Assembly: GCF_006442795.2 (NCBI RefSeq)
Contig: NZ_CP083956.1
Span: 2,395,501-2,459,500 of the forward strand
Source: Mesorhizobium sp. B1-1-8
GTDB taxonomy: Bacteria; Pseudomonadota; Alphaproteobacteria; Rhizobiales; Rhizobiaceae
Length of the DNA stretch: 64,000 bases
Reading direction: 5' to 3'
The notes beneath the pieces were generated by a model. The model did not search any database, was not told where the DNA came from, and saw only the letters and a program-made list of their open reading frames with translations. The translations under genes and the position numbers were made by a program. Of the stretch, positions 9,239 to 36,346 are shown in pieces (position 1 is the first letter of the stretch; each line of letters starts with the position of its first letter).

Positions 9239-9984
9239 GAAGCTTGCTTGCGGCGCTTGGCCTGTTGCTCGCTGGTGCGGCACTCGCCAGCGAGCGACCG
9301 ACCTTCGACCCGAAAATCGGCGCTCAACTTAGCCTTGGCCGCGAATTGGTCGATGCAAACCGCCAGAGGCGGACGCTTGACGGAACCCTGGGCGGCCATC
9401 CAGCGCTCGTCATCTTCGGCTACGACAGATGCCCGAATCTTTGCGGTGTCACACAGCAGGCGGTCGCTTCCGATCTGAAGAAGACGTCGCTTCGTCCTGC
9501 CGACTATCGCGCGCTGTTCATTTCGATCGATCCCGAAGAGACGCCCGCCGATGCCGCGGCGGCGCAGGCGGAGATCGCGTCCGCTGCCGGTCCGTCCGCA
9601 CCGGCGTGGCGGTTCCTGACAGGCAGCGACGGCGCCGGCGCGGCGCTTGCCAATGAGGCCGGCATAACTTTCGACCGACGTAAAGGCATCGACCAGTTCG
9701 TGCATCCGATCGCGGTCATCGCGCTCACACCGTCCGGCCGGATTGCGCGGGTGTTGCCGGCGCTGAGCTTCACGCCGCGCGACCTTGAGCTCGCGCTGGT
9801 CGAGGCGTCGGCCAACAAGCTCGGCTCTATCGCCGATCACGTCTTCCTCCTCTGCGCCGGCTTCGACAGTTCGAAGGGGCAGTATTCGCCTGCGATATGG
9901 GTGGCGCTGAAATTGGCAAGCCTGGCGACGGTGCTCGGCCTGGGCGCGACCGTGCTCTGGCAGACGCGGGGGAGGGCAAGGTGA
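9235..9984 (+). CDS. SCO1/SenC-family copper chaperone for cytochrome oxidase
   Basis: 249-residue Sco protein that delivers copper to the CuA site of oxidase subunit II. It has a cleavable or anchoring signal ([19 protein letters not shown]), a thioredoxin fold with the copper-binding CPNLC motif near residue 66 and the third ligand His in QFVHP near residue 156. Unusually for Sco it ends with a C-terminal hydrophobic helix (about 220-240). A longer in-frame reading begins at 8926, but the ATG at 9235 overlapping the previous stop is the one that yields a signal peptide. It lies immediately before coxB, whose product is its expected client. Confidence 0.92.
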
Positions 9985-21810: not shown

Positions 21811-21819
21811 GAGTTGCCG

Positions 21820-22917
21820 GTGGCCCACGTGGTTCTCAAAGATCTCGTCAAGACCTATGGCGGCTTCAAAGCCGTCAACGACGTTTCGTTGACGGTCAAT
21901 GATGGCGAATTCGTCGCGCTCGTCGGCCCTTCAGGCTGCGGCAAGACGACCACGCTCAATCTCGTGGCGGGGCTGATCCCGATCACATCGGGCGACATCG
22001 TCATCGGGGACAGGGTAGTCAACGACCTCGACCCCAAGGACCGGGACATCGCAATGGTGTTCCAGAACTACGCGCTCTATCCGCAAAAGTCGGTCTACAT
22101 GAACCTCGCTTTCCCGCTGCAGATGCGCAAACTGCCCAGGGACGAGATCGACAGGAAGGTCAAGGAAGCGGCGCGCGTGCTCGATATGACGCAGCTGCTC
22201 GAGCGCAAGCCGCGCGAGCTTTCGGGCGGGCAACAGCAGCGCGTGGCGCTCGGCCGCGCGCTTGTTCGAGATCCGGCGGTATTCCTGATGGACGAGCCGC
22301 TCTCTAATCTCGACGCAAAGCTGCGCGTTCAGATGCGGTCCGAGATCAAACGGTTCCATCAGGACCTCAAGGCGACGATCATCTATGTGACGCACGACCA
22401 GCTCGAGGCCGTGACCATGGCGGACAGGATGGCCGTGATGAATGGCGGCTATCTGCAGCAATACGATTCGCCGGCAAAGGTTTTCGCCCATCCCGTCAAC
22501 ATGTTCGTGGCGAGCTTCGTCGGCAGCCCGGCGATGAGCCTCATTCCGCTGCAGGCATCGACGGCAAATGGCGATACCGTTCTGACCAGCGCGGAAGGCT
22601 GGAATCTCACGCTGTCGCAACTCAACGCGCGCAAGGTCCGGAGAGCGACCACCAGGAAGGTCGTGCTCGGGGCGCGACACTCGACGATCAAGCTGCACAA
22701 GAACGCGGTCTCCAGCGCCATTCCGGCCAAGGCCTATACGGTGGAACCGACCGGAGACGTCACCTTCGTGCAGGCGTTCCTCTCCGGCGCCATCGTCAAC
22801 ATCAGCGTGTCCCCCAACATCGCCGTCAAACCTGATGAGCAGATCTGGCTCGAATTCGACCAGGAACGCACGCACCTGTTCGACGGCGAAACGGAAATGG
22901 CTCTCGAGGCCGACTGA
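21820..22917 (+). CDS. ABC sugar importer ATP-binding subunit (UgpC/MalK type)
   Basis: 365-residue ATPase with Walker A GPSGCGKTT (about 37), signature LSGGQQQRVALGRA, Walker B VFLMDEP, the D-loop SNLDAK and switch His in VTHDQ. The C-terminal 130 residues form the MalK-type regulatory domain, though its sequence (NARKVRRATTRKVVLGARHS) is less conserved than usual. The GTG at 21820 is chosen because TTAGGAG sits six nt upstream; a TTG at 21814 would overlap that site. Confidence 0.92.
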   Translation: MAHVVLKDLVKTYGGFKAVNDVSLTVNDGEFVALVGPSGCGKTTTLNLVAGLIPITSGDIVIGDRVVNDLDPKDRDIAMVFQNYALYPQKSVYMNLAFPLQMRKLPRDEIDRKVKEAARVLDMTQLLERKPRELSGGQQQRVALGRALVRDPAVFLMDEPLSNLDAKLRVQMRSEIKRFHQDLKATIIYVTHDQLEAVTMADRMAVMNGGYLQQYDSPAKVFAHPVNMFVASFVGSPAMSLIPLQASTANGDTVLTSAEGWNLTLSQLNARKVRRATTRKVVLGARHSTIKLHKNAVSSAIPAKAYTVEPTGDVTFVQAFLSGAIVNISVSPNIAVKPDEQIWLEFDQERTHLFDGETEMALEAD

Positions 22918-22950
22918 GACAGGGCGGGTGCGTGTGGAACCTGGGCGTGA

Positions 22951-24114
22951 ATGACTACGAAACTTAAGATCACTGTGATCAAGCCCTATCCGGTGTGGGT
23001 CGGGACCCGCAATCAGATGCTGGTCAAGGTCGAGACCGACCAGGGCATCTTCGGCTGGGGTGAGAGCGGCTTGAGCGGCCGCGAGAGGGCCGTTGCCGGC
23101 GCGGTCGAGCACTATCGCGAGTTTGTCATCGGCCGCGACCCGATGCAGATCGGCCGGATCTGGCAAGAGCTTTATCGCAGCCAGTATTTCGAAGGCGGGC
23201 GAGTTCTGCAGGCGGCGATTTCCGCCATCGACATCGCCCTCCACGACATCAAGGGCAAGGCGCTTGGGGTGCCGGTCTACGAGCTGCTGGGTGGCAGGCA
23301 GCGCGACCGCATCCCCACCTTCGCCTCGACCGGAGACGAGGCGGAGGGCGATGTTGCCATCGAACGAGCCAGTGAACTGCGCGCGCAGGGATGGCACGCG
23401 ATCCGCTTCTTCCCCATCGGGCAAAACAACAGGGACATCTTCGAGCCGCGCGAGTCGATTGGCGCCACCGCGAGTATGCTGAACAAGGCGCGCGAGACGT
23501 TGGGCGACGATGTCGTGCTCGGCGTCGACTATCATCATCGGCTGTCGGTGGCGGAGGCGGCGAGCTTCTGCAACAAGCTCGGCCGCGGTGTGCTCGATTT
23601 CCTCGAGGAGCCGATCCGCGACGAGACTCCGGAAGCCTACGAATCGCTGCGCAAGATGACCGACATCCCCTTTGCCATCGGCGAGGAATTTGCCAGCAAA
23701 TGGCAGTTCCTGCCCTATATCGAGCGCGGCATCCATCAGTTCAACCGGCTCGACGTCTGCAATGTCGGCGGGCTCACCGAGGCGATGAAGGTCGCCGGCT
23801 GGAGCGAGGCGCACTATGTCGACCTGATGCCGCACAATCCCCTTGGTCCGGTGTGCACGGCTGCAACCGTGCATCTGGCCGCCGCGGTGCCCAACTTCGC
23901 GTGGCTCGAGACCAGGGCGCCGGAAAGAAAGCTGGGCTTCGACAATTCCGAGTTCTTTCCCGTGCAACCACGGCTCGACGGGACCGATTATCCGGTCGGC
24001 GATCTGCCGGGGCTCGGCGTCGAGGTCAACGAGGCGGCGATCCAGGCGCAGAGTTTTCGTTTCTGGGAAGCGCCTCACCTCAAGCGCCGCGACGGTTCTG
24101 TCACCAACTGGTAG
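22951..24114 (+). CDS. Enolase-superfamily protein, galactonate-dehydratase-like, with altered catalytic lysine
   Basis: 387 residues, fourth enolase-superfamily gene of this divergon, placed after the importer ATPase. Metal ligands appear intact: Asp193 (VDYHH), Glu219/220 (FLEEP), Glu245/246 (GEEF) and the base His295 (MPHNPLGP). At the second-strand position where relatives carry Lys-x-Asp or Lys-x-Lys, this protein has Arg152-Phe-Phe154 (AIRFFP), so the usual lysine acid-base is missing. It could be a dehydratase using only the His/Asp-side chemistry, or have a different reaction. It is preceded by a 33-nt gap and followed by the aldolase gene. Confidence 0.83.
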   Translation: MTTKLKITVIKPYPVWVGTRNQMLVKVETDQGIFGWGESGLSGRERAVAGAVEHYREFVIGRDPMQIGRIWQELYRSQYFEGGRVLQAAISAIDIALHDIKGKALGVPVYELLGGRQRDRIPTFASTGDEAEGDVAIERASELRAQGWHAIRFFPIGQNNRDIFEPRESIGATASMLNKARETLGDDVVLGVDYHHRLSVAEAASFCNKLGRGVLDFLEEPIRDETPEAYESLRKMTDIPFAIGEEFASKWQFLPYIERGIHQFNRLDVCNVGGLTEAMKVAGWSEAHYVDLMPHNPLGPVCTAATVHLAAAVPNFAWLETRAPERKLGFDNSEFFPVQPRLDGTDYPVGDLPGLGVEVNEAAIQAQSFRFWEAPHLKRRDGSVTNW

Positions 24115-24137
24115 TTCCATTCAACCGGAGTCCGATA

Positions 24138-24887
24138 ATGACGCATACTCCCGACATCACGCGACCACCCAGGGACCTGATCGACGCCCTGCGGGAGATC
24201 GGCGCCGCGACAGTAGCCGGCACGCTTGGCCACATGGGCTTCCGCAATCCGCACATGGTCGGTCCGGTGGCGCAGAACCACGGCAAGTCGATCGTCGGGC
24301 CTGCGTTGACGCTGCAGTTCCTGCCGCAACGGCCGGACCTCTTCACTGAGGGAGAATATGCCGATCCGGAGACACAACTGCACCGGCACGTGCTCTATCA
24401 CGCGCAGCAGGGCGATGTGGTCGTGGTCGACGCGCGCGGCGACATGAGTTCGGGCGTCTTCGGCGATATGATGTCGACATATTTCAAGGGCAGGGGCGGC
24501 GCGGGCATCGTCATCGACGGGTGCATGCGCGACCGGCCCAATGTCGAAAAGCTCGACCTGCCGCTGTGGCTGCGCGGCTGGACACCCAACTATCACGTGC
24601 AAACCAGCATCTATCCGAACGCCGTCAACGTTCCGATTGCCTGCGGCGGTGTCACGGTGATCCCCGGTGACATCATCGTCGCCGACGACGACGGGGTGGT
24701 GGTGCTTCCCGTCGCGATGGCCGCGAAGGTGATCGACGAGGCACAAAAACATCACGATTGGGAGGAGTTCTCACGAGCGAAACTCATGCAGGGCGCGCCG
24801 CTGCAACGCTATTATCCGCTGCATGACGATGCCCGCGGAGAGTACGAGGAGTGGCGCAAGACAAACCGCCTGGAGAACCCAAATTAA
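24138..24887 (+). CDS. RraA-family aldolase (HMG/CHA aldolase-like)
   Basis: 249-residue RraA/dimethylmenaquinone-methyltransferase-fold protein. The catalytic motif of class II pyruvate aldolases in this fold is present as GIVIDGCMRDRPNVEKLDLP (Arg-Asp about 133-134). A second conserved stretch GGVTVIPGDIIVADDDGVVV follows. In a sugar-acid operon it is likely to cleave or decarboxylate a keto acid made by the dehydratases, giving pyruvate. ATG at 24138 follows CGGAG; the long upstream reading from 23391 is out of frame with the dehydratase and is not real. It is convergent with soxG. Confidence 0.82.
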   Translation: MTHTPDITRPPRDLIDALREIGAATVAGTLGHMGFRNPHMVGPVAQNHGKSIVGPALTLQFLPQRPDLFTEGEYADPETQLHRHVLYHAQQGDVVVVDARGDMSSGVFGDMMSTYFKGRGGAGIVIDGCMRDRPNVEKLDLPLWLRGWTPNYHVQTSIYPNAVNVPIACGGVTVIPGDIIVADDDGVVVLPVAMAAKVIDEAQKHHDWEEFSRAKLMQGAPLQRYYPLHDDARGEYEEWRKTNRLENPN

Positions 24888-24926: not shown

Positions 24927-25427
24927 CTAACCGGCGCTGTCGGCGATCCAGTCCGCGAGGCTGTGCGCAAAGCTTCGTGGCACGATCATATCGCAGCCGG
25001 TCTCGCTCGTGCGCAGCACGAGCACCGGTACGTGATGGAAGGCCGTTTGCAATGCGCGGCCCGGCGCTGAACCTGGCGAGCGCCAGTCGACTGCGATGCA
25101 GCTGGAGAGGATTTCCAGGACGCGCGCGCCGCTCAGGCTGAAGCGCACGCGGCCTTCGCCGAGGAAAACCGAACAGCCCAGTTCGGGATCGATCGCGGGC
25201 TGCGGCGGTTTTGCGCCCGCCTCGGTCGTCAGCCAGAGCCGGCGGGGGGAGACCCGGACGATGAGAGTATCGGCATGGCGGACCGTCTCGCCGACCGAGC
25301 CGGGAAGGTCCGTGCCCAGCATTGGCGAAACACTCGACTCGAACCGGGCGTCCCAGCCCTCGATCTGAACGATCGGGCAATCGGATGCCGACAGATTGAA
25401 ATCTTTCAATGCCAGAGCCTCAGCCAT
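24927..25427 (-). CDS. soxG: Sarcosine oxidase gamma subunit
   Basis: 166-residue protein of the SoxG family, the smallest-but-one subunit of heterotetrameric sarcosine oxidase. Recognisable elements are LSASDCPIVQIEGWD, RLWLTTEAG and VRFSLSGARVLEILSSCIAVD, then RALQTAFHHVPVLVLR and the closing RSFAHSLADWI. Gamma folds like part of a folate-binding domain and packs on the alpha subunit. It is the last gene of a minus-strand set and overlaps soxA by 8 nt. Confidence 0.87.
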   Translation of the reverse strand: MAEALALKDFNLSASDCPIVQIEGWDARFESSVSPMLGTDLPGSVGETVRHADTLIVRVSPRRLWLTTEAGAKPPQPAIDPELGCSVFLGEGRVRFSLSGARVLEILSSCIAVDWRSPGSAPGRALQTAFHHVPVLVLRTSETGCDMIVPRSFAHSLADWIADSAG

Positions 25428-28368
25428 GCAGCCGCTCTCCTTTCGGATCCAGAAAGACGGGCGAGACGATGCGGGCGCGAACGGTTTCGGCCTTCATCGG
25501 ATAGGTGGCGAGGACTTCGCCTCCCTCCGCCGCGACATCGCCTGCCAGCAGGGCGAGGCAGACATAGCGGCCAAGCTCCGGGCTGAACGTTACCGACGTT
25601 ATCCGGCCGCGCCCGTGCCCGGCGACGGTGTCGTCGGGCATGAACAGTATGGCGCCGCCGCGCAGGCGTTTGCCCTCCTCGGCGCATTCCAGGCCCACCA
25701 GACGCTGGCGGTTGGGCGCCTGAAATGCCGGACGCCGCCGCAGGACATCGCCAACAAACCCGGTGCGTTTTGCGGCCATGCGGCCAAGGCCGAGATCGTC
25801 GAGCGTGGTGCGGCCATCGATCTCCGGTCCTGCGACATGGCCCTTTTCGACGCGCAGCGCGCCGAGCGCCTCAACCCCGTAGGGTCTCAGGCCGAAGGGC
25901 GCGCCGGCCTCAAGCAAATGGCGCCAGGCCTTCTCGCCGGCAGTGGCGCCGACATAGATCTCGTAGGCGCGCTCGCCGGAATAGCTGAGCCGCATGATGC
26001 GCAATGCCCGACCGTCGAACTCGCCTTCGGCGAGGCCCATATGCGGCAGCGCTTCGTTCGAGACGTCTAGCTCCGGAAAGGCGGTGGCAAGGATATCGCG
26101 GCTCTTCGGCCCGGCGACCGACATCGCCGCCCATTCGTCGCTGACCGAGGTGACCGCGACGCGCAGGTCCGGCCAGGCGGTGTCGAGCAGGAATTCCAAC
26201 CGCGACAGGACATCGGCCGCCCTGGCGGTCGAGGTGGTCATGAAGAACTGGGTTTCCGAGAGCCGCGTCGTCGTGCCGTCGTCGAAGACGATGCCGTCAT
26301 CGCGCAGCATGACGCCGTAGCGGGCGCGGCCGACCGGCAGCCTGGCGAAGCCGTTGGCATAGACACGGTCGACGAAAATGGCCGCGTCCGGCCCTTGCAC
26401 GTCGATCTTGCCGAGGGTGGAAATGTCCATCAGCCCGGCGGCTTCGCGCACCATGCGCATCTCGGCGACATAGGCCTCGTTCACGTCGCTTCCGGCGGCG
26501 CGGTAGAAGTACGGACGCATCCAAAGCCCGACCTCGAGCATTTCGGCGTCATTCGCCACATGCCAGTCGTGCATGGGCGTGCGGCGGATCGGCTTGAAAT
26601 GATGGCCGACAGCGCGCCCGGCGAGCGCGCCGATGGCGACGGGCGTGTAGGGCGGGCGAAAGGTCGTGGTCCCGGTTTGCGAAATCGTCGCCCGGCGCAG
26701 CGCCGCCATGGCCGAAAGTGCTGCAAAATTGCTGGTCTTGCCCTGCTCGGTGCCCATGCCGAGCGTGGTGTAGCGCTTCAGGTGCTCGACCGATTCATAG
26801 CCTTCGCGATGGGCGAGCTCGATGTCCTTCGTGGTCACGTCCATCTGGAAATCGACAAAGGCCTTGCCGCGCCCGGCGGACGGGATTGCGCGGAACGGAC
26901 CGGTTGCTGCCTCGCCGAGATCGAGTTTGAGCGGCGCCGGCACCGCTGCCGATTTCCCGCAGGACGACGCCGCTTCGGTGCCGGCGCGGTGGCCGTCCTC
27001 GATGGCGGTGACAGTCGAAAAGCGGCCCATCATCGCGCCGGCGCCGAACTGGCCTGACGGAAAGCCGCCGGGAATGAAGCCGTCCATGTCGTCGCGATAG
27101 ACAGGCCTAACACCGAGATGCGAGGTGAGATGCACCGTCGGTGACCAGCCGCCGGACATGCAGACGAGGTCGCACGCGATTTCCGAATTGCCGCCCGGCC
27201 CGGCAAGCTTGGCGGCCTTGACCGCATGGCCGCCACGCAGGTCGGCGATTTGCGTCCCGGACCGGATCGCTATGGTCAGGCGCCTGGCTTCCGCAACCAG
27301 AGCGGCAGGTGGGGTGCTGCGCTGGTCCGCGAGGGTCACTTGCGCACCGGCGGCGGCAAAGTCGATGGCGGTGCGATAGGCGCCGTCATTCGTGGTCGCG
27401 ACCAGGATATTCTTGCCCGGCAGGACGGCGAAGCGGTTGAGATAGGTCCGGGCGGCCGATGCCAGCATGACGCCCGGTCGGTCGTTGTTGGAAAACACCA
27501 GCGGCCGCTCGATGGCCCCGGCGGCAAAGACGACCGAGCGGGCGCGCAGCATGGTGAAGACCTGGCACGCAGCGCCTTCCGCAGCCGGATCGTCGCGTCG
27601 CTCGATCAGCCCCAGCGTGTTGCCGTCATAGGCGCCGAACGTCACCGTCCTGCGCAGGACGGTGACGTTGGGCAGTCCTGCCAGTTCGGTCTCGACCGCC
27701 TGCAGCCAGGCTGCCGCCTCGCCATCGGAACGCTCCGAAAGAAGCTGACCGCCGAGCAGGAAATCCTGCTCGATCAGCACGACGCTCGCGCCGGCGTGCG
27801 CCGCGGCGCGCGCCGCTGACAGACCGGCAGGGCCGCCGCCGACAATGGCGACGTCGGCAAATGCGTGGCGCAGCTCGTAGCGGCCGGGATCTGGTTTGGT
27901 GCCGGCCCGGCCGAGGCCTGCAGCCCGGCGGATGAAATGCTCGTAGAACATCCAGGCGCGCCGGGTCGGGCCCATGAAGGTCTTGTAGTAGAAGCCGGCG
28001 GAGAGGAAGGGCGCAAACAGCCCGTTGATGCTCTGCAGGTCGAAGGCGAGCGAGGGCCAGCGGTTCTGGCTTTCGGCGGTCATGCCTTGCGCCAGCTCGA
28101 GCGTGGTGGCCGGCAGGTTCGGTTCGCGCCGTCCGCCGGTTCCGAGCGTGACCAGCGCGTTCGGCTCTTCCGGGCCAGCCGAAAATATGCCGCGAGGCCT
28201 GTGATATTTGAAGCTGCGGCCGGTCAGCATGATGCCGTTGGCCAGCAAGGCGGAAGCGAGCGTGTCGCCCCGACAGCCAGCCAGGTGGCGGCCATCGAAG
28301 GCGAAGCCCAGCGGCTGTGTGCGGTCGATGCGGCCGCCGGCGGCAAGGCGATTTCCGATTCTATTCAT
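25420..28368 (-). CDS. soxA: Sarcosine oxidase alpha subunit
   Basis: 982-residue alpha subunit of the heterotetrameric enzyme that demethylates sarcosine (N-methylglycine) to glycine and passes the one-carbon unit to tetrahydrofolate. The N-terminal ferredoxin-like domain (FAFDGRHLAGCRGDTLASAL) is followed by an NAD-binding Rossmann domain (IVGGGPAGLSAARAA, about 176) and, from about residue 600, a glycine-cleavage T-protein-like folate domain (MRMVREAAGLMDISTLGKID, then SYSGERAYEIYVG). The ATG at 28368 overlaps the end of soxD by 8 nt. An upstream ATG at 28398 is possible but would overlap soxD further. Confidence 0.94.
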   Translation of the reverse strand: MNRIGNRLAAGGRIDRTQPLGFAFDGRHLAGCRGDTLASALLANGIMLTGRSFKYHRPRGIFSAGPEEPNALVTLGTGGRREPNLPATTLELAQGMTAESQNRWPSLAFDLQSINGLFAPFLSAGFYYKTFMGPTRRAWMFYEHFIRRAAGLGRAGTKPDPGRYELRHAFADVAIVGGGPAGLSAARAAAHAGASVVLIEQDFLLGGQLLSERSDGEAAAWLQAVETELAGLPNVTVLRRTVTFGAYDGNTLGLIERRDDPAAEGAACQVFTMLRARSVVFAAGAIERPLVFSNNDRPGVMLASAARTYLNRFAVLPGKNILVATTNDGAYRTAIDFAAAGAQVTLADQRSTPPAALVAEARRLTIAIRSGTQIADLRGGHAVKAAKLAGPGGNSEIACDLVCMSGGWSPTVHLTSHLGVRPVYRDDMDGFIPGGFPSGQFGAGAMMGRFSTVTAIEDGHRAGTEAASSCGKSAAVPAPLKLDLGEAATGPFRAIPSAGRGKAFVDFQMDVTTKDIELAHREGYESVEHLKRYTTLGMGTEQGKTSNFAALSAMAALRRATISQTGTTTFRPPYTPVAIGALAGRAVGHHFKPIRRTPMHDWHVANDAEMLEVGLWMRPYFYRAAGSDVNEAYVAEMRMVREAAGLMDISTLGKIDVQGPDAAIFVDRVYANGFARLPVGRARYGVMLRDDGIVFDDGTTTRLSETQFFMTTSTARAADVLSRLEFLLDTAWPDLRVAVTSVSDEWAAMSVAGPKSRDILATAFPELDVSNEALPHMGLAEGEFDGRALRIMRLSYSGERAYEIYVGATAGEKAWRHLLEAGAPFGLRPYGVEALGALRVEKGHVAGPEIDGRTTLDDLGLGRMAAKRTGFVGDVLRRRPAFQAPNRQRLVGLECAEEGKRLRGGAILFMPDDTVAGHGRGRITSVTFSPELGRYVCLALLAGDVAAEGGEVLATYPMKAETVRARIVSPVFLDPKGERLHG

Positions 28369-28642
28369 ACGGACATTTTCCTGGCCGTTTCCGGGCAAAG
28401 CCGACCGATAGGATGGTGTGGTTTGTGGTGTCGCGCTCGACGACCAGCCATTGCCGGCAGCCGGTCACGTGCTGCCAGAATTCGCGGTGCGATCCGGCCG
28501 GATTGTTCCGCACATAGACGTAGCGGTACCAGGCTTCCGGATCGGGATCGTCATGCGCCGGACGCGCAACCGAAGCGTCGCCGCCGTAGCGGAACTCGTC
28601 ATGGTCGCGCGGGCCGCAGCAAGGGCATTCGATGCGAAGCAT
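28361..28642 (-). CDS. soxD: Sarcosine oxidase delta subunit
   Basis: 93-residue zinc-binding delta subunit. The zinc ligands are visible in IECPCCGPRDHDEF at the N-terminus and in HVTGCRQWL near residue 58. The motif RYVYVRNNPAGSHREFWQHV is characteristic of SoxD. It bridges alpha and beta in the tetramer. Start 12 nt after soxB. Confidence 0.93.
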   Translation of the reverse strand: MLRIECPCCGPRDHDEFRYGGDASVARPAHDDPDPEAWYRYVYVRNNPAGSHREFWQHVTGCRQWLVVERDTTNHTILSVGFARKRPGKCPYE

Positions 28643-28654
28643 TTGTCTTGCTCT

Positions 28655-29917
28655 CTATTGCAGCCAGGCCGAGGGGCCCGCACCGGCCTCGTCGAGCGTA
28701 TGGCCGGTACGAAAACGGCCGAGCCCGTAGGCGGCGATCAGCGGATGCGGCTTGCCCGTCGCCAGCGTGTGCGCGAAGCACCAGCCCGAGGCAGGCGTCG
28801 CCTTGAAGCCGCCATAGCACCAGCCGCCGTTGAGATAGAGCCCGTCGATCGGCGTCGGGCAGATGATCGGGCTGGCGTCGGGCGTCATGTCCATGACGCC
28901 GCCCCAATGGCGCAGCAGCCGGACGCGCGAGATGCAGGGCATCAATGCGATCGCGGCCTCCGCCACCTCGCGCACGACGCCGAGATTACCGCGCTGGGCA
29001 TAGGAATTGTAGCCGTCGAGATTGCCGCCGAAAACGAGCCCACCCTTGTCGGACTGGCTGACATAGAAATGATCGGCGCCGTAGGCGACGACATGGTCGA
29101 CCAGCGGCTTCAGCGGCTCGGTGACGAAAGCCTGGAGCACATGGCTTTCGATAGGCAGTTCCAGGCCGGCCTTCTGTCCGAGCACGGAGGTATGGCCGGC
29201 AACGGCGAGGCCGACCTTGCCGGCGCCGATCCGGCCCTTGCTTGTCTCGACACCGACGATCCTGTCGCCGTCGCGGACGAAGCCGGTTACTTCGCAGTTC
29301 TGGATGATGTCGACGCCATGACCGTCGGCGGCGCGTGCATAACCCCAGGCGACGGCATCGTGGCGGGCGGTACCGGCACGACCCTGCAGGATGGCGCCAT
29401 ATATCGGAAATCGCGCCGTTTCGGAGAAATCCAGATAGGGCACCAGTCGCCGCACCGCATCGCGGTCGAGTATGTCGGCATCGATGCCGTTCAGCCGCAT
29501 GATGTTGGCGCGATGGCTGAACGTGTCGAGCTGGTCCGCCGAATGGGCGGTGACGATCTGGCCGCGCTGCGAGAACATGACGTTGAAATTCAGCGCCTGC
29601 GACAGGCCTTCCCACAGCTTGACTGAGAATTCGTAGAACTGGGTATTGCCGTCGAGCAGGTAGTTGGAGCGGATGACCGTGGTGTTGCGGCCGACATTGC
29701 CGCCGCCGACATAGCCCTTCTCCAGCACGGCGACATTGCGGATGCCGTGGTTCTCGGCCAGATAGAAGGCTGTAGCCAGCCCATGTCCGCCGCCGCCGAC
29801 GATAACCACATCGTAAGCCGGCTTAGGCTCGGCGGCGCGCCAGGCGCGCTGCCAGTTCTTCTGGCCGGACAGGCCGTTGCGAAAAATCGATAGGGCCGAA
29901 TAGCGCGACATGTTCAT
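28655..29917 (-). CDS. soxB: Sarcosine oxidase beta subunit
   Basis: 420-residue flavin-binding catalytic subunit. The FAD dinucleotide-binding site is VVIVGGGGHGLATAFYL (about 37-53), followed by the conserved VLEKGYVGGGNVGRNTTVIR (about 63-82). C-terminal DMTPDASPIICPTPIDGLYL and GGWCYGGFKATPASGW complete the family signature. It oxidises N-methyl groups of sarcosine-like amines. It begins 3 nt after the stop of an M24 hydrolase gene, so the two are one transcript. A second ATG two codons in (MSRYSAL) could also serve. Confidence 0.94.
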   Translation of the reverse strand: MNMSRYSALSIFRNGLSGQKNWQRAWRAAEPKPAYDVVIVGGGGHGLATAFYLAENHGIRNVAVLEKGYVGGGNVGRNTTVIRSNYLLDGNTQFYEFSVKLWEGLSQALNFNVMFSQRGQIVTAHSADQLDTFSHRANIMRLNGIDADILDRDAVRRLVPYLDFSETARFPIYGAILQGRAGTARHDAVAWGYARAADGHGVDIIQNCEVTGFVRDGDRIVGVETSKGRIGAGKVGLAVAGHTSVLGQKAGLELPIESHVLQAFVTEPLKPLVDHVVAYGADHFYVSQSDKGGLVFGGNLDGYNSYAQRGNLGVVREVAEAAIALMPCISRVRLLRHWGGVMDMTPDASPIICPTPIDGLYLNGGWCYGGFKATPASGWCFAHTLATGKPHPLIAAYGLGRFRTGHTLDEAGAGPSAWLQ

Positions 29918-29920
29918 GGT

Positions 29921-31069
29921 CTAGCGGACGATCGGACCGGCCGGGGTGCGCGTCAGCACCTCCGCCCCCGCATCGGTCAGCAGCACGGTGTTGGAGATGA
30001 AATGGTCGCCGCGGCCAGTGCCCATCAGCCAGGACAGGATGTGGAAGCTCATGCCGGTCTCGATCTCCAGATCGGAATCGTGCCGTAGGCCCGTCACCGA
30101 ATTGCCGCCTGTCCAGGATGGCGGCTGGCCGATGCCGACCAGATAGCCGCAATGGTGGCGGCGATAGTGCGACAGGCCGGCTTCATCGGCGACGCCCTGC
30201 CAGGCGGCATAGACGTCGCGGGCCCTGACGCCGGGTTTGAGCGCCTTGACGACGGCGTCGAATGCTTTGGCCGTGACCCCGGCCATCGCTGCGTCTTCAT
30301 CCTTGATGCTGCCGATGCGGATCAGCCGGCCGAGCGGCGCATGATAGCGCGAGACGCAGCCGGACAGCTCGACGAACACCGGCTCGCCGCGGCGGTAGAC
30401 GCCGTCACCCCAAGTCGTGTGCTCTTCGCCGAGCCTGGCGGCAGGACGGATGAACGGACCGAAGCCTGGCGCATGGCCTCCGGCGCGCGCCATCGCCGCG
30501 ACGCATTCGGCGGCGACCTCCTGCTCGGCGGCGCCGTCATAGATCGCCGCGATCGCGGCGCCCGCGGCGGCGTCCGTGACCTTGGCGGCGCGGCGCATCA
30601 GCACCTGTTCCTCGGCGCTCTTCACCAGCCGCATCTTGTCGACCAGACCGGAAATGTCGCTCCATTTGGCGTCGGCCTGCGCCTCGAGCTTCAGCGCGAG
30701 GCCGTGGCTGAGACCCGAGGTCCAGTATTCGAGACCGGTGCGCTTACCCGCCAGGCCGAGCTCGGCAAGGACGCGCGCGGCGAGATCGGCGGCCGTCTCG
30801 CTGTCGGAATGGCCGCGGAATTGCGCCGCCTTCACCTGGTTTTCGATCGTCACCTTCTCCATCGATCGGGTGACCATTACCGGTTGCCTGTCGAGCGTGA
30901 CGATCAACAGGTGCGGCGCGAAATAGCCCCAATGGTCGAGGCCGGTGAGATAGAAGATGTTTTCCGGCGAAGCGAAGACGGCGGCATCAAGCCCGCGCTC
31001 GGCCAACGCCTTGCGCACCTTCGACAGGCGGGCAGCGACTTCTGCTTCGGAAAAGGGATTGCGGTCCAT
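29921..31069 (-). CDS. M24-fold hydrolase (creatinase / ectoine-hydrolase-like), copy 2
   Basis: 382-residue pita-bread protein of the creatinase/aminopeptidase P superfamily. It has a creatinase N-terminal domain (AVFASPENIFYLTGLDHWGY, about 31-50) and a C-terminal catalytic domain with EEHTTW, VFVELSGCVSRYHAPLGRL and GYLVGIGQPPSWTGG. The five metal ligands of true M24 peptidases are not evident, as in creatinase and ectoine hydrolase DoeA, which work without metal. Its active-site segments resemble DoeA more than creatinase (no ALERT motif). It sits 3 nt before soxB and 37 nt after a closer DoeA homologue. Confidence 0.82.
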   Translation of the reverse strand: MDRNPFSEAEVAARLSKVRKALAERGLDAAVFASPENIFYLTGLDHWGYFAPHLLIVTLDRQPVMVTRSMEKVTIENQVKAAQFRGHSDSETAADLAARVLAELGLAGKRTGLEYWTSGLSHGLALKLEAQADAKWSDISGLVDKMRLVKSAEEQVLMRRAAKVTDAAAGAAIAAIYDGAAEQEVAAECVAAMARAGGHAPGFGPFIRPAARLGEEHTTWGDGVYRRGEPVFVELSGCVSRYHAPLGRLIRIGSIKDEDAAMAGVTAKAFDAVVKALKPGVRARDVYAAWQGVADEAGLSHYRRHHCGYLVGIGQPPSWTGGNSVTGLRHDSDLEIETGMSFHILSWLMGTGRGDHFISNTVLLTDAGAEVLTRTPAGPIVR

Positions 31070-31106
31070 TGGGTATCCTTGAAATTGCCGGTTCTTCGCT
31101 GGCGGG

Positions 31107-32306
31107 TCAGTCGATTACGATGAGGTCGCGGGTGACGTTGCAAAGCCGCTCGCCGCCGCCCTCGGCAACGACGAAGGACTCCGAGATGGCGACGCCGAAA
31201 TCGTCGAGCCAGACGCCGGCCATGAAGTGGAAACACATGCCGGGCCGAAGCTCGGTCTTGTCGCCTGGCCTCAGGCTAGCGGTGCGTTCGCCCCAGTCCG
31301 GCGGATAGGCGAGACCGACCGGATAGCCGACGCGGCTTTCCTTCTTCAGCCCGTTTTTGCGCAACACCGCCTGCCAGGCGGCTTCGACCTGTTCACAGGT
31401 GTTGCCGGGCCGCGCCAGATCGAGACCGGCATCGACGCCTTCGACGATCACCTTGGCCATATCGGAGAGGGCGGCCGGCGGCTTGCCGAAATGCACCGTC
31501 CGGGTCAGCGCCGCATGGTAGCGCCGCCGCACGCCGGCGATCTCGACGATGGCCAGCCCGCTGTCCGGAAGCGGCGCGTCCGACCAGGTCAGGTGCGGCG
31601 TGCTCGTGCCTTCGCCGACCGGCATCAACGGGCAGATTGCGGCGTAGTCGCCGCCGGCGCCCGGCACGCCCATGATCTGCGCATGATAGATCTCGGCAAT
31701 CACGTGGTTCTGCGGCACGCCCGGCCGCATCTTTTCGACGGCGCGGTTCATGGCGGTGCTGCAGATCGCGCCGGCCTTTCGGATAAGCGCCAGCTCGGCG
31801 TACGATTTCACCAGCCGGGCCCAGTTGACGAGGTCGTGATTGTTGCTGAAGCGCGCCGCGGGCAGGCCGCCGACAAGATGGGCATGGCAGCGCGCCGTGT
31901 AGTAGTGCGCGTCCATCTCGACGCCGATGCGCGCCTGTTCCCAACCGCGTGCCCGGATCAGGCGGGCGAGCTCGTCATAGGGATGCTCGATGGGCTGCTG
32001 CACCAGCCGCTCCGAGAACGGGACGATGTTTTCTTCGGGCAGGCCGGTGGTCATGCGGGCGCTCCTGGCGTCCTGCGCCCTGCCGAACCAGATCGGCCGA
32101 TCTTCCTCCAGATGGACCAGCACGCATTGCGGCACGTAGAAGGACCAGCCGTCATAACCGGTGAGCCAGCACATGTTTGCCGGATCCTGGCAGACGATGA
32201 GATCGTAGCCGGCCTTCTCCATACGGTGCTTTACGTCGGCCAGGCGCCGTGCGTATTCCGCCTTGGTGAACCCGTCCGACCCGCCCAAAACCGTCATCCC
32301 TCCCAT
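31107..32306 (-). CDS. M24-fold hydrolase, DoeA/EutD (ectoine hydrolase)-like, copy 1
   Basis: 399 residues, first gene of the sarcosine oxidase operon. It matches ectoine hydrolase DoeA/EutD closely by eye: DPANMCWLTGYDGWSFYVPQ (about 41-60), STPHLTW, VEIAGVRRRYHAALTRTV, GYPVGLAYPPDWGERTASLR and PGMCFHFMAGVWLDDFG. DoeA opens the amidine ring of ectoine without a metal. However, none of the later ectoine genes (doeB deacetylase, doeC, doeD) is nearby, and the operon continues into sarcosine oxidase, so the substrate may be a different cyclic or N-methylated amidine. The start is uncertain; ATG at 32306 or 32297. Confidence 0.83.
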   Translation of the reverse strand: MGGMTVLGGSDGFTKAEYARRLADVKHRMEKAGYDLIVCQDPANMCWLTGYDGWSFYVPQCVLVHLEEDRPIWFGRAQDARSARMTTGLPEENIVPFSERLVQQPIEHPYDELARLIRARGWEQARIGVEMDAHYYTARCHAHLVGGLPAARFSNNHDLVNWARLVKSYAELALIRKAGAICSTAMNRAVEKMRPGVPQNHVIAEIYHAQIMGVPGAGGDYAAICPLMPVGEGTSTPHLTWSDAPLPDSGLAIVEIAGVRRRYHAALTRTVHFGKPPAALSDMAKVIVEGVDAGLDLARPGNTCEQVEAAWQAVLRKNGLKKESRVGYPVGLAYPPDWGERTASLRPGDKTELRPGMCFHFMAGVWLDDFGVAISESFVVAEGGGERLCNVTRDLIVID

Positions 32307-32525
32307 TGCCGCGCCCGGATGCGGCTTGCGGCCGCAATTTCAGGAATTGTGCACAACTGTTGAATGTTTCAGCCGCAAACCGGTGAGCAAACGGCTATTT
32401 TTCGAGATTCGTACAGCGCATCTTGCGATATGTCCAGATGAGTTGTATACGTCTTATACGCTCGATGCGACGGAGGAGAAACGTCGCCCGAGTCAGACAA
32501 TCGTCAAAAAGAAAAAGGGGAATAC
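32307..32525. promoter_or_regulatory. Divergent promoter region with repeated TATACG motif
   Basis: This 219-nt region separates the M24-sox operon from the ehu operon. TTGTATACG at 32443-32451 and TTATACG at 32454-32460 form a direct repeat of TATACG with a 9-nt period. GTATAC itself is palindromic and of the kind bound by FadR-type GntR proteins; such a regulator is the last gene of the ehu operon. No convincing -35/-10 pair was assigned. Confidence 0.35.
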
Positions 32526-33395
32526 ATGCTCATGTCACACATATCTCGCCGTGCGGTTGTGAAGGCCGCCGCCTGCCTCGCGCTAGCCGCGACCGCATTG
32601 ACGTCGTTGCCGGCCCATGCGGAGACGACGCTGGAACGCGCCAAGAAGGACGGCTACATCCGTGTCGGCTTCGCCAACGAGGCGCCGTTCGGTTTCGCGA
32701 CGCCCGACGGCAAGCTGACCGGCGAGGCTCCCGAGGTCGCCAAGGCCGTGCTCGCCAAGATGGGCATCAAACAGGTCGACGGCGTGCTGACCGAGTTCGG
32801 CTCGCTTATCCCCGGGCTCAAGGCTGGCCGCTTCGACATCATCGCCGCCGGCATGTTCATCACTCCGAAGCGCTGCGCCGAGATCAATTTCTCGGAGCCG
32901 TCCTACGGCATCGGCGAGGCCTTGTTGGTGACAAAGGGTAATCCCAAGGGCATCAAGGACTTTTCCAGCATCAAGGACAACCCGGATCTCAAGCTCGCCG
33001 TGATGGCCGGCGCCGTCGAGGGCGGCTTCGCCAAGGACGCGGGTGTTGCCGAAGGGCAGATCGTCACTTTGCCCGACCAGTCCAGTCTCGTCGCCGCCGT
33101 CCAGGCAGGGCGCGCCGATGCGGCCGCGCTCACCGCGCTGTCGATCGCCGACATGGCCAAGAAGGCCGATGGCGTCGAATCGACCAAGCCGTTCGGCGAG
33201 GTTGCCGGCAAATCGGTGAAGGGCCATGGCGGCTTCGGCTTCCGTAAGCAAGACACCGATCTGCAGAAAGCGTTCAACGCCGAGCTGAAGAAGTTCATCG
33301 GCTCGCCCGAGCACATCGCCCTGGTCGAGCCGCTCGGCTTCGGGAAGGATTATTTGCCGAACAAGACCACAGCGCAGCTCTGCAAGGGCGAATAG
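32526..33395 (+). CDS. ehuB: ABC importer binding protein, EhuB-like (ectoine/hydroxyectoine type)
   Basis: 289-residue family-3 periplasmic binding protein. The signal peptide contains SHISRRAVVKAAACLALA with cleavage after PAHA. The mature part starts ETTLERAKKDGYIRVGFANE and runs through GFATPDGKLTGEAPEVAKAV, GVLTEFGSLIPGLKAGRFD and a C-terminal GSPEHIALVEPLGFGKDYLP, a series that matches rhizobial EhuB. EhuB binds ectoines, but family members of near identical layout can bind other small zwitterions. AAGGGG precedes the ATG at 32526; an ATG two codons on is also possible. Confidence 0.82.
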   Translation: MLMSHISRRAVVKAAACLALAATALTSLPAHAETTLERAKKDGYIRVGFANEAPFGFATPDGKLTGEAPEVAKAVLAKMGIKQVDGVLTEFGSLIPGLKAGRFDIIAAGMFITPKRCAEINFSEPSYGIGEALLVTKGNPKGIKDFSSIKDNPDLKLAVMAGAVEGGFAKDAGVAEGQIVTLPDQSSLVAAVQAGRADAAALTALSIADMAKKADGVESTKPFGEVAGKSVKGHGGFGFRKQDTDLQKAFNAELKKFIGSPEHIALVEPLGFGKDYLPNKTTAQLCKGE

Positions 33396-33407
33396 TTCCC
33401 AACTGCT

Positions 33408-33437
33408 GGGCGGCGCGAAAGCGCCGCCCTCTTTTTT
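33408..33437 (+). terminator. Intrinsic-terminator-like hairpin after ehuB
   Basis: Stem GGGCGGCGC / GCGCCGCCC with a GAAA tetraloop (33408-33429) followed by TCTTTTTT. It starts 12 nt after the ehuB stop and precedes ehuC by 14 nt. It looks like a textbook Rho-independent terminator, so permease expression would need partial read-through. Confidence 0.85.
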
Positions 33438-33451
33438 CTTCGGAGAAGCAG

Positions 33452-34180
33452 ATGGGAATCCGCACGCTCGTTGCCATGCTGGCCGCCTCGCTGGCTGTGA
33501 TCGCCGTGCTGGCAACGCAGGCCACGTACAGGCTGTTCCTGCCGGGACTGCTGCAAGGTGCCGTACTGACGATCGAGATCGCAGTCCTTGGCAGCCTGCT
33601 GGCGGTTGTCATGGGCGTGCTCGCCGCGCTGGCACGCATGTATGGTCCGGCGCCGCTTAGATGGCTGGCGACGGTCTATGTCGAAATCTTTCGCGGCACT
33701 TCGGCGCTGGTGCAGCTGTTCTGGCTGTTTTTCGTGCTGCCGCAATTCGGCGTCACGCTCGACGCATTCCTGGTCGCCGTGCTGGCGCTTGGCCTGAATG
33801 TCGGGGCCTACGGATCCGAATGCGTGCGCGGCGCCATCCAGTCGGTCGCGCGCGGCCAGTGGGAAGCGGGAACGGCGCTCAACATGAGCCGATCGCAGAT
33901 GCTGCGCCGGATCATCCTGCCGCAGGCCTTCATCGCCATGATCCCGCCCTGGGGCAATCTGTTCATCGAGCTGCTGAAGTCGACCGCGCTGGTGTCGCTG
34001 ATCACGCTCACCGATCTTGCCTTCAAGGCACAGCAAATGAACCAGAATACGTTCAAGACCATTCCGATCTTCACGCTTGTGCTGCTGATGTATCTGGCGA
34101 TGTCGCTCACCGTCTCCATCGGCATGCGGCTCCTCGAAAAACGGGCCTCGCTCGGCCTGGCGCGGGGGAGGGCGGCATGA
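33452..34180 (+). CDS. ehuC: ABC amino-acid-type importer permease, EhuC-like
   Basis: 242-residue His/Glu/Gln/Arg-type permease with about five helices and the EAA-like loop SVARGQWEAGTALNMSRSQM (about 130-149). The family motif PPWGNLFIELLKSTALVSLI follows. It forms a heterodimeric channel with the next gene product, with which it overlaps by 4 nt. CGGAGAAGCAG precedes the ATG at a good distance. Confidence 0.86.
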   Translation: MGIRTLVAMLAASLAVIAVLATQATYRLFLPGLLQGAVLTIEIAVLGSLLAVVMGVLAALARMYGPAPLRWLATVYVEIFRGTSALVQLFWLFFVLPQFGVTLDAFLVAVLALGLNVGAYGSECVRGAIQSVARGQWEAGTALNMSRSQMLRRIILPQAFIAMIPPWGNLFIELLKSTALVSLITLTDLAFKAQQMNQNTFKTIPIFTLVLLMYLAMSLTVSIGMRLLEKRASLGLARGRAA

Positions 34181-34836
34181 TCTGGGATTGGGGTTTTACT
34201 CTGGAGATCCTGCCGGTGCTGGCGCACGCGGCCATCGTGTCGATCGAGGCGACGCTTCTCGGCTTCGTCATAGCGGCGACGCTTGGCATGGTCCTGGCCG
34301 TGATCCGCATCGCCGTGCCGTGGACCGCCTGGACGATCTCGGTGCTGGTCGAGCTGATCCGCTCGACGCCGCTGCTCATCCAGATCTTCTTCATCTATTT
34401 CGTCTTTCCGAAATTCGGCCTTGTGCTCGACGCGTTCACGGCCGGCGTCATCGCCATCGGCATCCACTACGCCGCCTACTGCTCGGAGGTCTATCGCGCC
34501 GGCTTCGACAATATCCATCGCGGTCAGTGGGAAGCCTCGATCGCGCTCAATCTGTCGTCCTGGACGACCTTTCGCGACATCATCATCCCGCAGGCCATTC
34601 CGCCGATCGTGCCGGCGCTCGGCAACTATCTCGTCGCGCTGTTTAAGGAGACGCCGCTGCTTTCGGCCATCGCCGTGCTGGAGCTCATGCAGACCGCCAA
34701 GATCATCGGCTCCGAGACATTCCGCTACACCGAACCGATCACCTTGGTCGGCCTGTTCTTCCTCGCGATGAGCCTGGTTTCGGCCGCGCTTATTCGTGCC
34801 CTCGAACGCCTGCTCAACCAGAGGAACGCCCGATGA
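34177..34836 (+). CDS. ehuD: ABC amino-acid-type importer permease, EhuD-like
   Basis: 219-residue partner permease with the same family signature: HRGQWEASIALNLSSWTTF in the ATPase-coupling loop (about 116-134) and PALGNYLVALFKETPLLSAI. The true start is the ATG at 34177 overlapping the ehuC stop and preceded by GGGGGAGGG; a longer reading from 33661 runs over ehuC in another frame. It overlaps ehuA by 4 nt. Confidence 0.86.
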   Translation: MIWDWGFTLEILPVLAHAAIVSIEATLLGFVIAATLGMVLAVIRIAVPWTAWTISVLVELIRSTPLLIQIFFIYFVFPKFGLVLDAFTAGVIAIGIHYAAYCSEVYRAGFDNIHRGQWEASIALNLSSWTTFRDIIIPQAIPPIVPALGNYLVALFKETPLLSAIAVLELMQTAKIIGSETFRYTEPITLVGLFFLAMSLVSAALIRALERLLNQRNAR

Positions 34837-35612
34837 CGGAACAACCGATGGTGCGCTTCGACAATGTTTCCAAACGCTACGGCTCATTGACTGTCCTCGA
34901 TGGCCTGAACCTCGAAATCGCGCGCGGCGAGAAGGTCTCCGTCATCGGTCCGTCCGGCTCCGGCAAGACCACCGTCCTGCGCATGCTGATGACGCTGGAG
35001 ACGATCAACGACGGCGTCATCTGGGTTGAGGGCGAGCCGCTGACGCATATGAAGCAGAACGGAAAGCTGGTGCCCGCCAACCTCGCCCATATCAGGCGCA
35101 TCCGGGCGAAGATCGGCATGGTGTTCCAGTCCTTCAACCTGTTTCCGCATATGACGGCGATGGCCAATTGCATCGAGGCGCCGATAACCGTGCTTGGCAT
35201 GAAACGGGCGGATGCCGAGGCGCGGGCGGCGGAGCTTCTCGACATGGTCGGGCTGTCGCAGAAGAAGGATCATTATCCCTCCCAGCTCTCCGGCGGCCAG
35301 CAGCAGCGCGTCGCCATCGCTAGGGCGCTGGCAATGCGGCCCAAGATAATGTTGTTCGACGAGGTGACGTCGGCGCTCGACCCCGAACTTGTCGGCGAAG
35401 TGCTGCAGGTGATAAGGCAAATCGGCCGCGAGCATGATTTGACAATGCTCATGGTCACCCACCAGATGGGCTTCGCCAAGGAATTTTCCGACCGCGTCTG
35501 CTTCTTCTACCAGGGAAAGATTTGCGAGCAGGGACCGCCGGGCGAGCTGTTCGGCGCGCCCAAGAACGAGCGGACGCGGCAGTTCCTGCACGCTGTCCTG
35601 GAGGCTGGATGA
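34833..35612 (+). CDS. ehuA: ABC amino-acid-type importer ATPase, EhuA-like
   Basis: 259-residue ATPase with Walker A GPSGSGKTT (about 39), signature LSGGQQQRVAIARA, Walker B IMLFDEVTSALDPE and switch His in VTHQMGFA. It contains the short insertion MKQNGKLVPANLAHIRRIRA (about 72-91) between Walker A and the Q-loop that is a mark of EhuA-type proteins. It energises uptake by the EhuBCD proteins. Its stop overlaps the GntR gene by 4 nt. Confidence 0.88.
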   Translation: MTEQPMVRFDNVSKRYGSLTVLDGLNLEIARGEKVSVIGPSGSGKTTVLRMLMTLETINDGVIWVEGEPLTHMKQNGKLVPANLAHIRRIRAKIGMVFQSFNLFPHMTAMANCIEAPITVLGMKRADAEARAAELLDMVGLSQKKDHYPSQLSGGQQQRVAIARALAMRPKIMLFDEVTSALDPELVGEVLQVIRQIGREHDLTMLMVTHQMGFAKEFSDRVCFFYQGKICEQGPPGELFGAPKNERTRQFLHAVLEAG

Positions 35613-36346
35613 CGCTGGAGACGGAGGCCTCGGCCGCGACAATGACCGCGTCGCGTCCGCTGTCGGCGCGGGAACGGTTCGAACGCATCTACCTGATCCT
35701 GCGCGACCGCATCTGCCTGCTCGACTACCCGCCGGGAAGCCGGCTCTCCGAGGAAGAACTCGCCCAGGAATTCGAGATCAGCCGCACGCCGGTCCGCCGT
35801 GTGCTGGCGCGGCTTGAATCCGAAGGCCTGGTTCAGTCCGTGCATGGCGTCGGCACCATAGTCACCGATGTCGATATCGAGGAACTGCAGCAGGTCTATC
35901 ATCTGCGCCTGGAACTGGCGCTTCTGGTCGGCAAGCTCTCGCCTATACCGCGTACGGCGGCCGACCTCGATCGGATCCGGGCGCTCATTGCGCGCTGCGA
36001 TTCCGACATGGTCAATCCGGATCAACGGGCTTTCCTGCAGCTGAACATGGATTTCTTCTCCGAACTGACCGCCATGACCGGGAACCAGCCGCTGCGCGAG
36101 ATCAGCGAGCGGCTGTATTTCCAAGTGGCGCGCGTCGTCCTGAAGATGATGCCGCAGCTGGGCCTCGTGGAGGAGTTCACGGCGTTCCGACGCGAAATGG
36201 AGGAGGTCCTGGCCGCGGCAGAGATCGGTGATTGGGAATCGATCGGGCATATACGGCGCGCCCACATCTCGATGAGCTTTCGACGCATGATGCGCCATGC
36301 TGGTCATGCCAGGGACGGCGATCGCTTGGTACGGCAAGAGGAATGA
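35609..36346 (+). CDS. GntR-family (FCD subgroup) regulator of the ehu/sox divergon
   Basis: 245 residues: winged helix (IYLILRDRICLLDYPPGSRL, then EELAQEFEISRTPVRRVLAR) and FCD effector domain with DIEELQQVYHLRLELALLV and FLQLNMDFFSEL. It is translationally coupled to ehuA, so the importer and regulator rise together. Ectoine operons of other rhizobia and marine bacteria more often use a MocR-type EnuR, not an FCD protein, which is one more sign that the inducer here may not be ectoine. Likely targets are its own operon and the divergent M24-sox operon. Confidence 0.85.
   Translation: MTLETEASAATMTASRPLSARERFERIYLILRDRICLLDYPPGSRLSEEELAQEFEISRTPVRRVLARLESEGLVQSVHGVGTIVTDVDIEELQQVYHLRLELALLVGKLSPIPRTAADLDRIRALIARCDSDMVNPDQRAFLQLNMDFFSELTAMTGNQPLREISERLYFQVARVVLKMMPQLGLVEEFTAFRREMEEVLAAAEIGDWESIGHIRRAHISMSFRRMMRHAGHARDGDRLVRQEE

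Follow-up and report, generated by a model that had tools for sequence, protein, structure and literature searches.

The closest described relatives of the locus are the following systems. The canonical ectoine cluster, ehuABCD-eutABCDE-asnC-ssd-atf, combines an Ehu importer with a DoeA-type hydrolase; heterotetrameric sarcosine oxidase (SoxBDAG; 2gag, 1vrq) is characterised by four subunits, a folate domain and a conserved histidine and lysine in SoxB; and the route from creatinase to sarcosine oxidase joins an enzyme of the M24 fold to a sarcosine-type oxidase. In addition, ectoine-like clusters of Bacillota carry an extra eutD homologue and an abgB amidohydrolase gene beside ectoine genes (PMC13188858).

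The locus analysed here comes from Mesorhizobium sp. B1-1-8, a soil bacterium related to legume symbionts, and its gene set is common to relatives of this host. It shares the Ehu importer and the DoeA-type hydrolase with the canonical ectoine cluster (and in several relatives also doeB, eutB, eutC, Lrp/AsnC, doeC and doeD), but differs from it in having a second M24 hydrolase, SoxBDAG, a second type of EhuB and a GntR/FCD regulator instead of the MocR-type EnuR. No title listed for the open-licence literature pointed to an M24-M24-soxBDAG-ehu cluster, and none was described in the portions available of PMC5924519, PMC13188858, PMC8739950, PMC3187862 and PMC5518125; ehuB together with soxB was likewise not found in that literature. 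In the available main text of PMC13188858, a survey of 575 EutD proteins, sarcosine occurs once, in a reference, and sarcosine-oxidase genes are not mentioned for the Bacillota clusters, unlike the situation here; the available texts of PMC5518125 and of two further papers place Sox in glycine-betaine use or far from ectoine genes.

Gene content and organisation of the locus

The window is the whole stretch of 64 kb that was analysed (C1:2395501-2459500, where C1 is the chromosome of the window's own genome, G000). All of the genes named in the initial annotation (two M24 genes and soxBDAG opposite ehuBCDA and a GntR gene) were present in it as open frames with Pfam or NCBIfam matches (Table 1), and its account of the gene content was thus confirmed. 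The minus-strand group runs in the order M24A, M24B, soxB, soxD, soxA, soxG and diverges from ehuBCDA and the GntR/FCD gene. The gaps between M24A and M24B, M24B and soxB, and soxB and soxD are 37, 3 and 12 bases respectively, followed by two overlaps, which suggests that M24A to soxG probably form a single operon; the true start of soxA may be closer to 28368 than to 28398. Plus-strand genes downstream of soxG converge on it, and the cluster at 19964-24887 on that strand includes a MalFG/UgpC-like sugar ABC transporter, a galactonate-dehydratase-like gene of the enolase superfamily and an aldolase-like gene.

Table 1. Features of the divergent locus, in positions of the window
Feature	Position	Strand	Evidence
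soxG, divergent	24927..25427	-	Pfam SoxG 22.9 bits, slightly above cut-off of 21
soxA, 2Fe-2S-type, Rossmann and folate-binding GCV_T domains	25420..28398	-	TIGR01372 1232 bits; GCV_T 6.4e-64
soxD	28361..28642	-	Pfam SoxD E 3.9e-32
soxB, predicted beta subunit of heterotetrameric sarcosine-oxidase-type demethylase	28655..29917	-	TIGR01373 679 bits
M24B, predicted second metal-free M24 hydrolase, clade of its own	29921..31069	-	382 aa; 29.9% to own DoeA
M24A, predicted DoeA-type cyclic-amidine hydrolase, sister clade of DoeA/EutD	31107..32306	-	399 aa; 48.5% to own DoeA, 45.2% to 6twk
Palindrome-like AGTTGTATACGTCT, putative GntR operator, divergent promoter region	32441..32454	.	only GTATAC in the 64-kb window
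ehuB, second-type binding protein	32526..33395	+	TIGR02995 315 bits
ehuC permease	33452..34180	+	TIGR03004 277 bits
ehuD permease	34177..34836	+	TIGR03003 303 bits
ehuA ATPase	34833..35612	+	TIGR03005 441 bits
GntR/FCD regulator	35609..36346	+	Pfam GntR 4.7e-20, FCD 3.3e-12

SoxA and SoxB scored above their NCBIfam cut-offs, while SoxD (108 bits, cut-off 116.5) and SoxG (53 bits, cut-off 144) scored below theirs. The folate domain of SoxA is intact and has the FDDG motif in common with 2gag_A, an argument for a demethylating function. His186 and Lys372 of SoxB, which we take to be the FMN-linking histidine and the catalytic lysine, were conserved in every aligned row, and the locus therefore has the four subunits, the folate domain and the conserved SoxB histidine of a heterotetrameric sarcosine oxidase.

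A complete canonical ectoine operon was found on the same chromosome, at approximately C1:2470977-2484616, which is 11.5-25 kb past the window end and approximately 39-53 kb from the cassette. It contains DoeB (C1:2483627-2484601), EutA (C1:2479563), DoeD- and DoeC-type genes, an AsnC-type regulator, EhuABCD, EutB, EutC and DoeA. The absence of doeB, doeC and doeD on which the initial annotation built therefore holds for this locus but not for its chromosome, which has these three genes along with a second Ehu system and EutABC; a lack of doe genes in the organism was ruled out. The further proposal that an N-demethylating enzyme had taken the place of the ectoine enzymes was not upheld, as several relatives have the same genes clustered with doeB, eutBC, doeC and doeD, and a complete operon lies nearby in this genome.

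The M24 proteins and the Ehu importer

Eleven M24 matches were identified in the window's genome. Against the NCBIfam model for DoeA (TIGR02993, cut-off 613 bits) M24A scored 482 bits and M24B 151 bits, and M24B scored 212 bits against DoeA_2 (cut-off 575), all of which are below the respective cut-offs. In a tree of 162 rows, made by a quick method with a warning for long branches, M24A was a member of a 36-row clade that is sister to DoeA proper (33 rows, among them 6twk from Halomonas and the DoeA of the window's genome), M24B belonged to a separate and more distant clade of 81 rows, and neither protein nested within the DoeA clade. The initial annotation had called for such a phylogeny and had set against its own reading the case in which both proteins nest among ectoine hydrolases while doeBCD are located elsewhere in the genome and induced together, with a binding protein specific for ectoine only; doeBCD were indeed located elsewhere, but both M24 proteins were placed outside the DoeA clade.

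The columns of the metal ligands of prolidase 1pv9 hold other residues in M24A, M24B and DoeA alike. Glu255 of DoeA, which reportedly forms a covalent intermediate, and His238 were invariant across the DoeA, M24A and M24B clades, the corresponding residues of M24B (E234 and H217) being present in 100% of its 81 rows. Given the lost metal-ligand columns and the invariant DoeA-type glutamate and histidine, both proteins look like metal-free DoeA-type C-N hydrolases. Of the polar and aromatic columns conserved in DoeA, M24A has kept 55/80 and M24B 32/80, and the pocket of M24A looks largely DoeA-like while that of M24B looks remodelled.

The four Ehu proteins all exceeded their NCBIfam equivalog cut-offs. 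Compared with 2q88, the window EhuB scored 180 bits and the canonical EhuB of the same genome 483 bits. Six residues of 2q88 were followed, namely Glu21, Phe24, Tyr60, Phe80, Arg85 and Thr133, all presumed to be ectoine contacts. In the window EhuB Glu21, Phe24, Phe80 and Arg85 are kept, Tyr60 is replaced by phenylalanine and Thr133 by valine, and the same pattern was observed across 54 second-type EhuB proteins (Phe24 kept in 83%, valine for Thr133 in 98%). These scores and residues would fit a related but different cyclic amidinium ligand.

Twenty-two genomes were searched with the DoeA, DoeB and EhuB models. In 6/22 (G009-G014) M24A was the sole DoeA-family match at E<=1e-60, and a DoeB over the cut-off was found on the same contig 4-6 kb off. 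Three Sinorhizobium genomes (G002, G003 and G005) have DoeA and DoeB, yet their single EhuB match at E<=1e-40 is of the window type, and the second-type EhuB was likewise the sole match at that threshold in the genomes of loci L055 and L090. Both results tie M24A and the second-type Ehu system to ectoine-type solutes.

Further DoeA-like genes were also observed. The window's genome has a third DoeA-like protein (44.6% identity to its own DoeA) encoded at positions 9072-10265 of locus L167, within C1:3345000-3364900, with no Ehu-type binding protein or sox gene in the 20 kb around it. In Mesorhizobium muleiense three M24 genes of the DoeA family share an island (L165/L166, G020:C16:35000-74800) with several genes of the EhuB type, which suggests that the family of ectoine-like importers and hydrolases is wider still.

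Distribution, neighbourhoods and the SoxB subfamily

A scan of one genome collection confirmed 165 M24B loci, of which 80 were kept for neighbourhood counts; gene identities in representative neighbourhoods were checked with NCBIfam. In the fetched stretches of these 80 loci, genes were counted for Ehu (64), GntR (49), eutC (43), eutB (42), a doeD-type aminotransferase (37), M24A (35), Lrp (35), doeA (34), a doeC-type dehydrogenase (34), soxB (32), an M20 deacetylase (22) and doeB (15). The fetched stretch lacked soxB in 48/80 loci, so that M24B either has a role without N-demethylation or depends on a distant Sox system. Ten of the 80 were counted without an Ehu system, an eut/doe core or soxB; among these, L092 has M24A-, DoeA- and M20-type genes and L082 has an EhuB at a contig end.

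Where soxB was present, 10/32 loci also had at least two of eutB, eutC, doeB, doeC and doeD. In six Sinorhizobium/Ensifer loci the cassette lies between doeX-C-D and eutB-eutC-doeA-doeB. In Dongia deserti one cluster holds DoeB, GntR, Ehu genes, EutB, EutC, M24A, Lrp, SoxGADB, a DoeC-type gene, M24B and a DoeD-type gene, placing the sox operon inside an ectoine-type cluster (ehuC was not resolved there by frame picking). M24B and Sox occur without M24A in two Mesorhizobium loci (L019 and L025) and in L073, and in the Devosia locus L090 a DoeA-like gene occupies the place of M24A. The pairing of two DoeA-type hydrolases with SoxBDAG and an Ehu importer, as first pointed out in the initial annotation, is therefore real and recurs outside the genus. 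Relatives of M24B with 59-60% identity were also seen in Acidiferrobacteraceae-type and other proteobacterial assemblies (L086-L089 and L091) with no ectoine genes in the stretch; in L086 an enolase-superfamily gene lies upstream.

EutA was scored over the cut-off in 7/34 genomes (G000, G001, G004, G015, G016, G019 and G020), in all of which the cassette is apart from the canonical operon. In 25 of the remaining 27 the M24B locus contains eutB, eutC or both, and in contrast to the canonical cluster none of these 25 has an EutA over the cut-off; weaker EutA-family matches were found in 11/27. M24B may stand in for EutA. According to the part of PMC13188858 that was available, EutA is also missing from Halomonadaceae clusters and many Burkholderiaceae ones, so its absence is weak evidence, and given also the kinship of the genomes the substitution is a lead and no proof.

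An initial SoxB tree was built from all SoxB over the cut-off in 14 genomes and those of the fetched loci. The clade of the cassette SoxB comprised 36 rows, of which 34 came from M24B/DoeA-type loci, with the window entered twice, and the remaining 2 from a single metagenome-assembled genome. The window's genome has three further SoxB proteins (C1:1744571, 2861331 and 5105100), all of which fell outside this clade, and so did the SoxB of Maritimibacter (L073), although it adjoins M24B. In a FastTree tree of 87 rows, with 28 class-wide rows added and 15 near-copies left out, a core clade of 20 rows was recovered with a support of 97, of which 19 were linked and one (L148) came from the same metagenome-assembled genome, on a 9.3-kb contig where sox genes are accompanied by an M20 gene and M24 is absent. 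With the class-wide rows added, the Dongia pair was placed just outside the core beside three of these rows; M24 was absent around the SoxB of one of the three (G349), and no M24 was found in the 18 kb of L161, whose SoxB lies beside the core clade.

Class-wide sampling of M24B (2/385 genomes, own included) was too sparse for a linkage test and family-wide sampling was therefore used. In an even sample of 247 Rhizobiaceae genomes, which included that of the window, 9 genomes yielded 10 SoxB matches at E<=1e-215, and all 10 lie within approximately 7 kb of a DoeA-type M24 gene. Eight directly adjoin M24B (seven by coordinates and one at a contig end), while the other two are separated from another DoeA-like gene by approximately 4 and 7 kb and belong to clusters that also hold an M20 gene and an ABC importer of the amino-acid type. 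Plasmids gave a similar result: 306 records had SoxB matches at E<=1e-150, seven of them at 80-90% identity, the next best among the matches listed being 69.2%. All seven SoxB of at least 80% identity are likewise within approximately 7 kb of a DoeA-type gene and six have M24B directly adjacent. The seventh, on the Mesorhizobium sp. 131-2-5 plasmid NZ_AP023251, lies among doeA, argE, M20, M24, soxBDAG, a binding protein, ehuC, ehuD and ehuA; its M24 is 41% identical to M24B and the whole is a divergent version of the cassette. A gene set similar to that of this plasmid was also noted in L164. Just downstream of ehuA on the plasmid and on the same strand (L227:20310-23254; NZ_AP023251.1 140111-143055) are genes for a methylaspartate ammonia-lyase, a CaiB/BaiF CoA-transferase and a CoA ester lyase, with which the pathway could end in methylaspartate or mesaconate in that strain.

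The cassette SoxB, unlike sarcosine oxidase of the 2gag/1vrq type, belongs to a separate subfamily tied to DoeA-type genes (10/10 and 7/7 sampled matches). Five columns only separate the core clade from other SoxB and none could be placed in the active site. With the histidine and lysine unchanged as well, there is no sequence sign of a radically different substrate, and plain sarcosine is possible.

The hexamer GTATAC was found at 32445, between M24A and ehuB. In the loci overall it occurs at 0.048 per kb and it was present in 35/65 EhuB stretches (410 bases each, covering the EhuB start and the sequence ahead of it), a count that is descriptive as the site was picked after inspection of the window. 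With its flanks the hexamer becomes AGANGTATACANCT in most loci from Mesorhizobium and Sinorhizobium. When 20 genomes were searched for AGNNGTATACNNCT, 13 gave a match, and judging by coordinates 12 of these have a site upstream of either the second-type EhuB or M24A (in G571 the placement was inferred from the position of M24B). Over the 20 genomes this flanked pattern was rarer than its reversed control (20 versus 43 sites), so the evidence for an operator is its position and not its number. In L052 GTATAC sites precede both Ehu/eutB and soxB/Lrp, the second, with slightly different flanks, lying between soxB and an Lrp gene that heads doeC-doeD-type genes. The first palindrome scan yielded nothing common to more than 5/39 stretches, and the loci, 1.55 Mb in total, contain no copy of a longer motif, GTATA-N5-TATAC; what recurs is only GTATAC flanked by AG/CT. 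From these positions we infer that the GntR protein binds the GTATAC sites.

Proposed pathway, alternatives and significance

That the locus represents a real and recurring variant of the ectoine-type pathway class, with an associated demethylase, is well supported. The computed gene content, clades, co-occurrence, active-site residues and recurring site suggest a substrate, an order of steps and a function for the regulator, as follows. The solute taken up by the second-type EhuBCDA would be a small amino acid with a cyclic amidinium group, akin to (hydroxy)ectoine; ring opening and cleavage of another C-N bond by M24A and M24B would give an N-methyl amino acid; SoxBDAG would bring its methyl group to the oxidation level of 5,10-methylene-tetrahydrofolate or formaldehyde; and the freed amino acid would enter central metabolism, probably as diaminobutyrate converted to aspartate by DoeB/DoeD/DoeC of the canonical operon, or as glutamate. 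The GntR/FCD protein would control both divergent operons from the shared GTATAC-centred palindrome. We consider the chances of this full explanation, in which N-demethylation is part of a branch of ectoine-type solute catabolism, to be evenly balanced, its standing having been slightly lowered by the lack of enrichment of the operator pattern over the control and by SoxB clade members without a nearby M24.

With a DoeA-type ring opening ahead of methyl removal, the simplest substrate would be an N-methyl cyclic amidine amino acid, and an N-methylated, ectoine-like compound of this kind is our best guess and the most likely substrate. Candidates are N-methyl(hydroxy)ectoine, which would yield N-methyl-diaminobutyrate and feed DoeD/DoeC, and 2-imino-1-methylpyrrolidine-5-carboxylate, which by its formula is an isomer of ectoine and whose hydrolysis would give N-methylglutamine and then N-methylglutamate. 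We know of no occurrence of the latter in soil. It is described in the available text of PMC10180399 as a natural N-methyl compound of a marine sponge, and its structure was once assigned to pyrostatin B, later found to be ectoine. Methylated ectoine, searched for under three spellings, was not found in the open-licence literature.

The main rival is ordinary use of (hydroxy)ectoine, as 48/80 M24B loci are without soxB. Here M24A would be an isoenzyme of ectoine hydrolase, M24B would replace EutA for 5-hydroxyectoine and a neighbouring Sox system would handle sarcosine, with no N-methylated solute involved. The genomes in which M24A is the only DoeA-family match near DoeB, those with no EhuB match other than the second type, and the distribution of EutA all agree with it, though the last counts for little given the gaps in other clusters and the weaker matches noted above. 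It leaves unexplained why the SoxB subfamily is repeatedly close to DoeA-type genes despite other SoxB copies in the same genomes, and also the GTATAC site before soxB/Lrp in L052, and we regard it as rather unlikely, if still to be taken seriously.

Two other readings were judged far less probable. M24 relatives cleave bonds to imino acids, and M24B could by analogy be a dipeptidase-like enzyme that releases an N-methyl amino acid such as sarcosine from some peptide-like compound imported by Ehu. Possible Dpp-type transporters, recognised by gene sizes and clustering only, lie beside M24B in L042, L045, L079, L087 and L091; however, the changed prolidase metal-ligand columns, the invariant DoeA-type residues and the Ehu genes in 64/80 loci make such a role improbable. 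The initial annotation had taken its nearest analogue from creatinase and named creatinine as an example of a substrate; in such a creatine/creatinine pathway one M24 protein would be a creatinase making sarcosine for SoxBDAG. The residues Glu262 and Glu358 of creatinase (chain index 261 and 357 in 1chm), which we take to be its catalytic pair, are missing from the alignments of M24A and M24B, and creatinase identity was rejected for both as they carry the DoeA glutamate in their stead. Identity to 1chm is 19.4% for M24A and 24.9% for M24B, creatinase fell outside both clades, though on a long branch, and no creatininase was found among the ten proteins scanned. SoxBDAG is a complex of the sarcosine-oxidase type and DoeA is described as creatinase-like in the available text of PMC3187862, but a creatine route is nevertheless very improbable.

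More specifically, the locus may represent a dedicated alphaproteobacterial pathway, carried on chromosomes and plasmids, for an unrecognised N-methylated ectoine-type osmolyte, in which DoeA-type opening, a second metal-free M24 cleavage and folate-linked N-demethylation by a specialised SoxBDAG follow one another; this we put forward tentatively, with the balance somewhat against it. If it is true, a class of ectoine-like osmolytes that has gone unrecognised as a nutrient would be a genuine food source in soil, perhaps also in the sea, and the recurring second EutD-like gene near ectoine genes would gain a testable role. Proteins named 'Xaa-Pro peptidase' at the 165 confirmed M24B loci of one genome collection would probably belong to a different pathway, and the use of compatible solutes would be linked to one-carbon metabolism.
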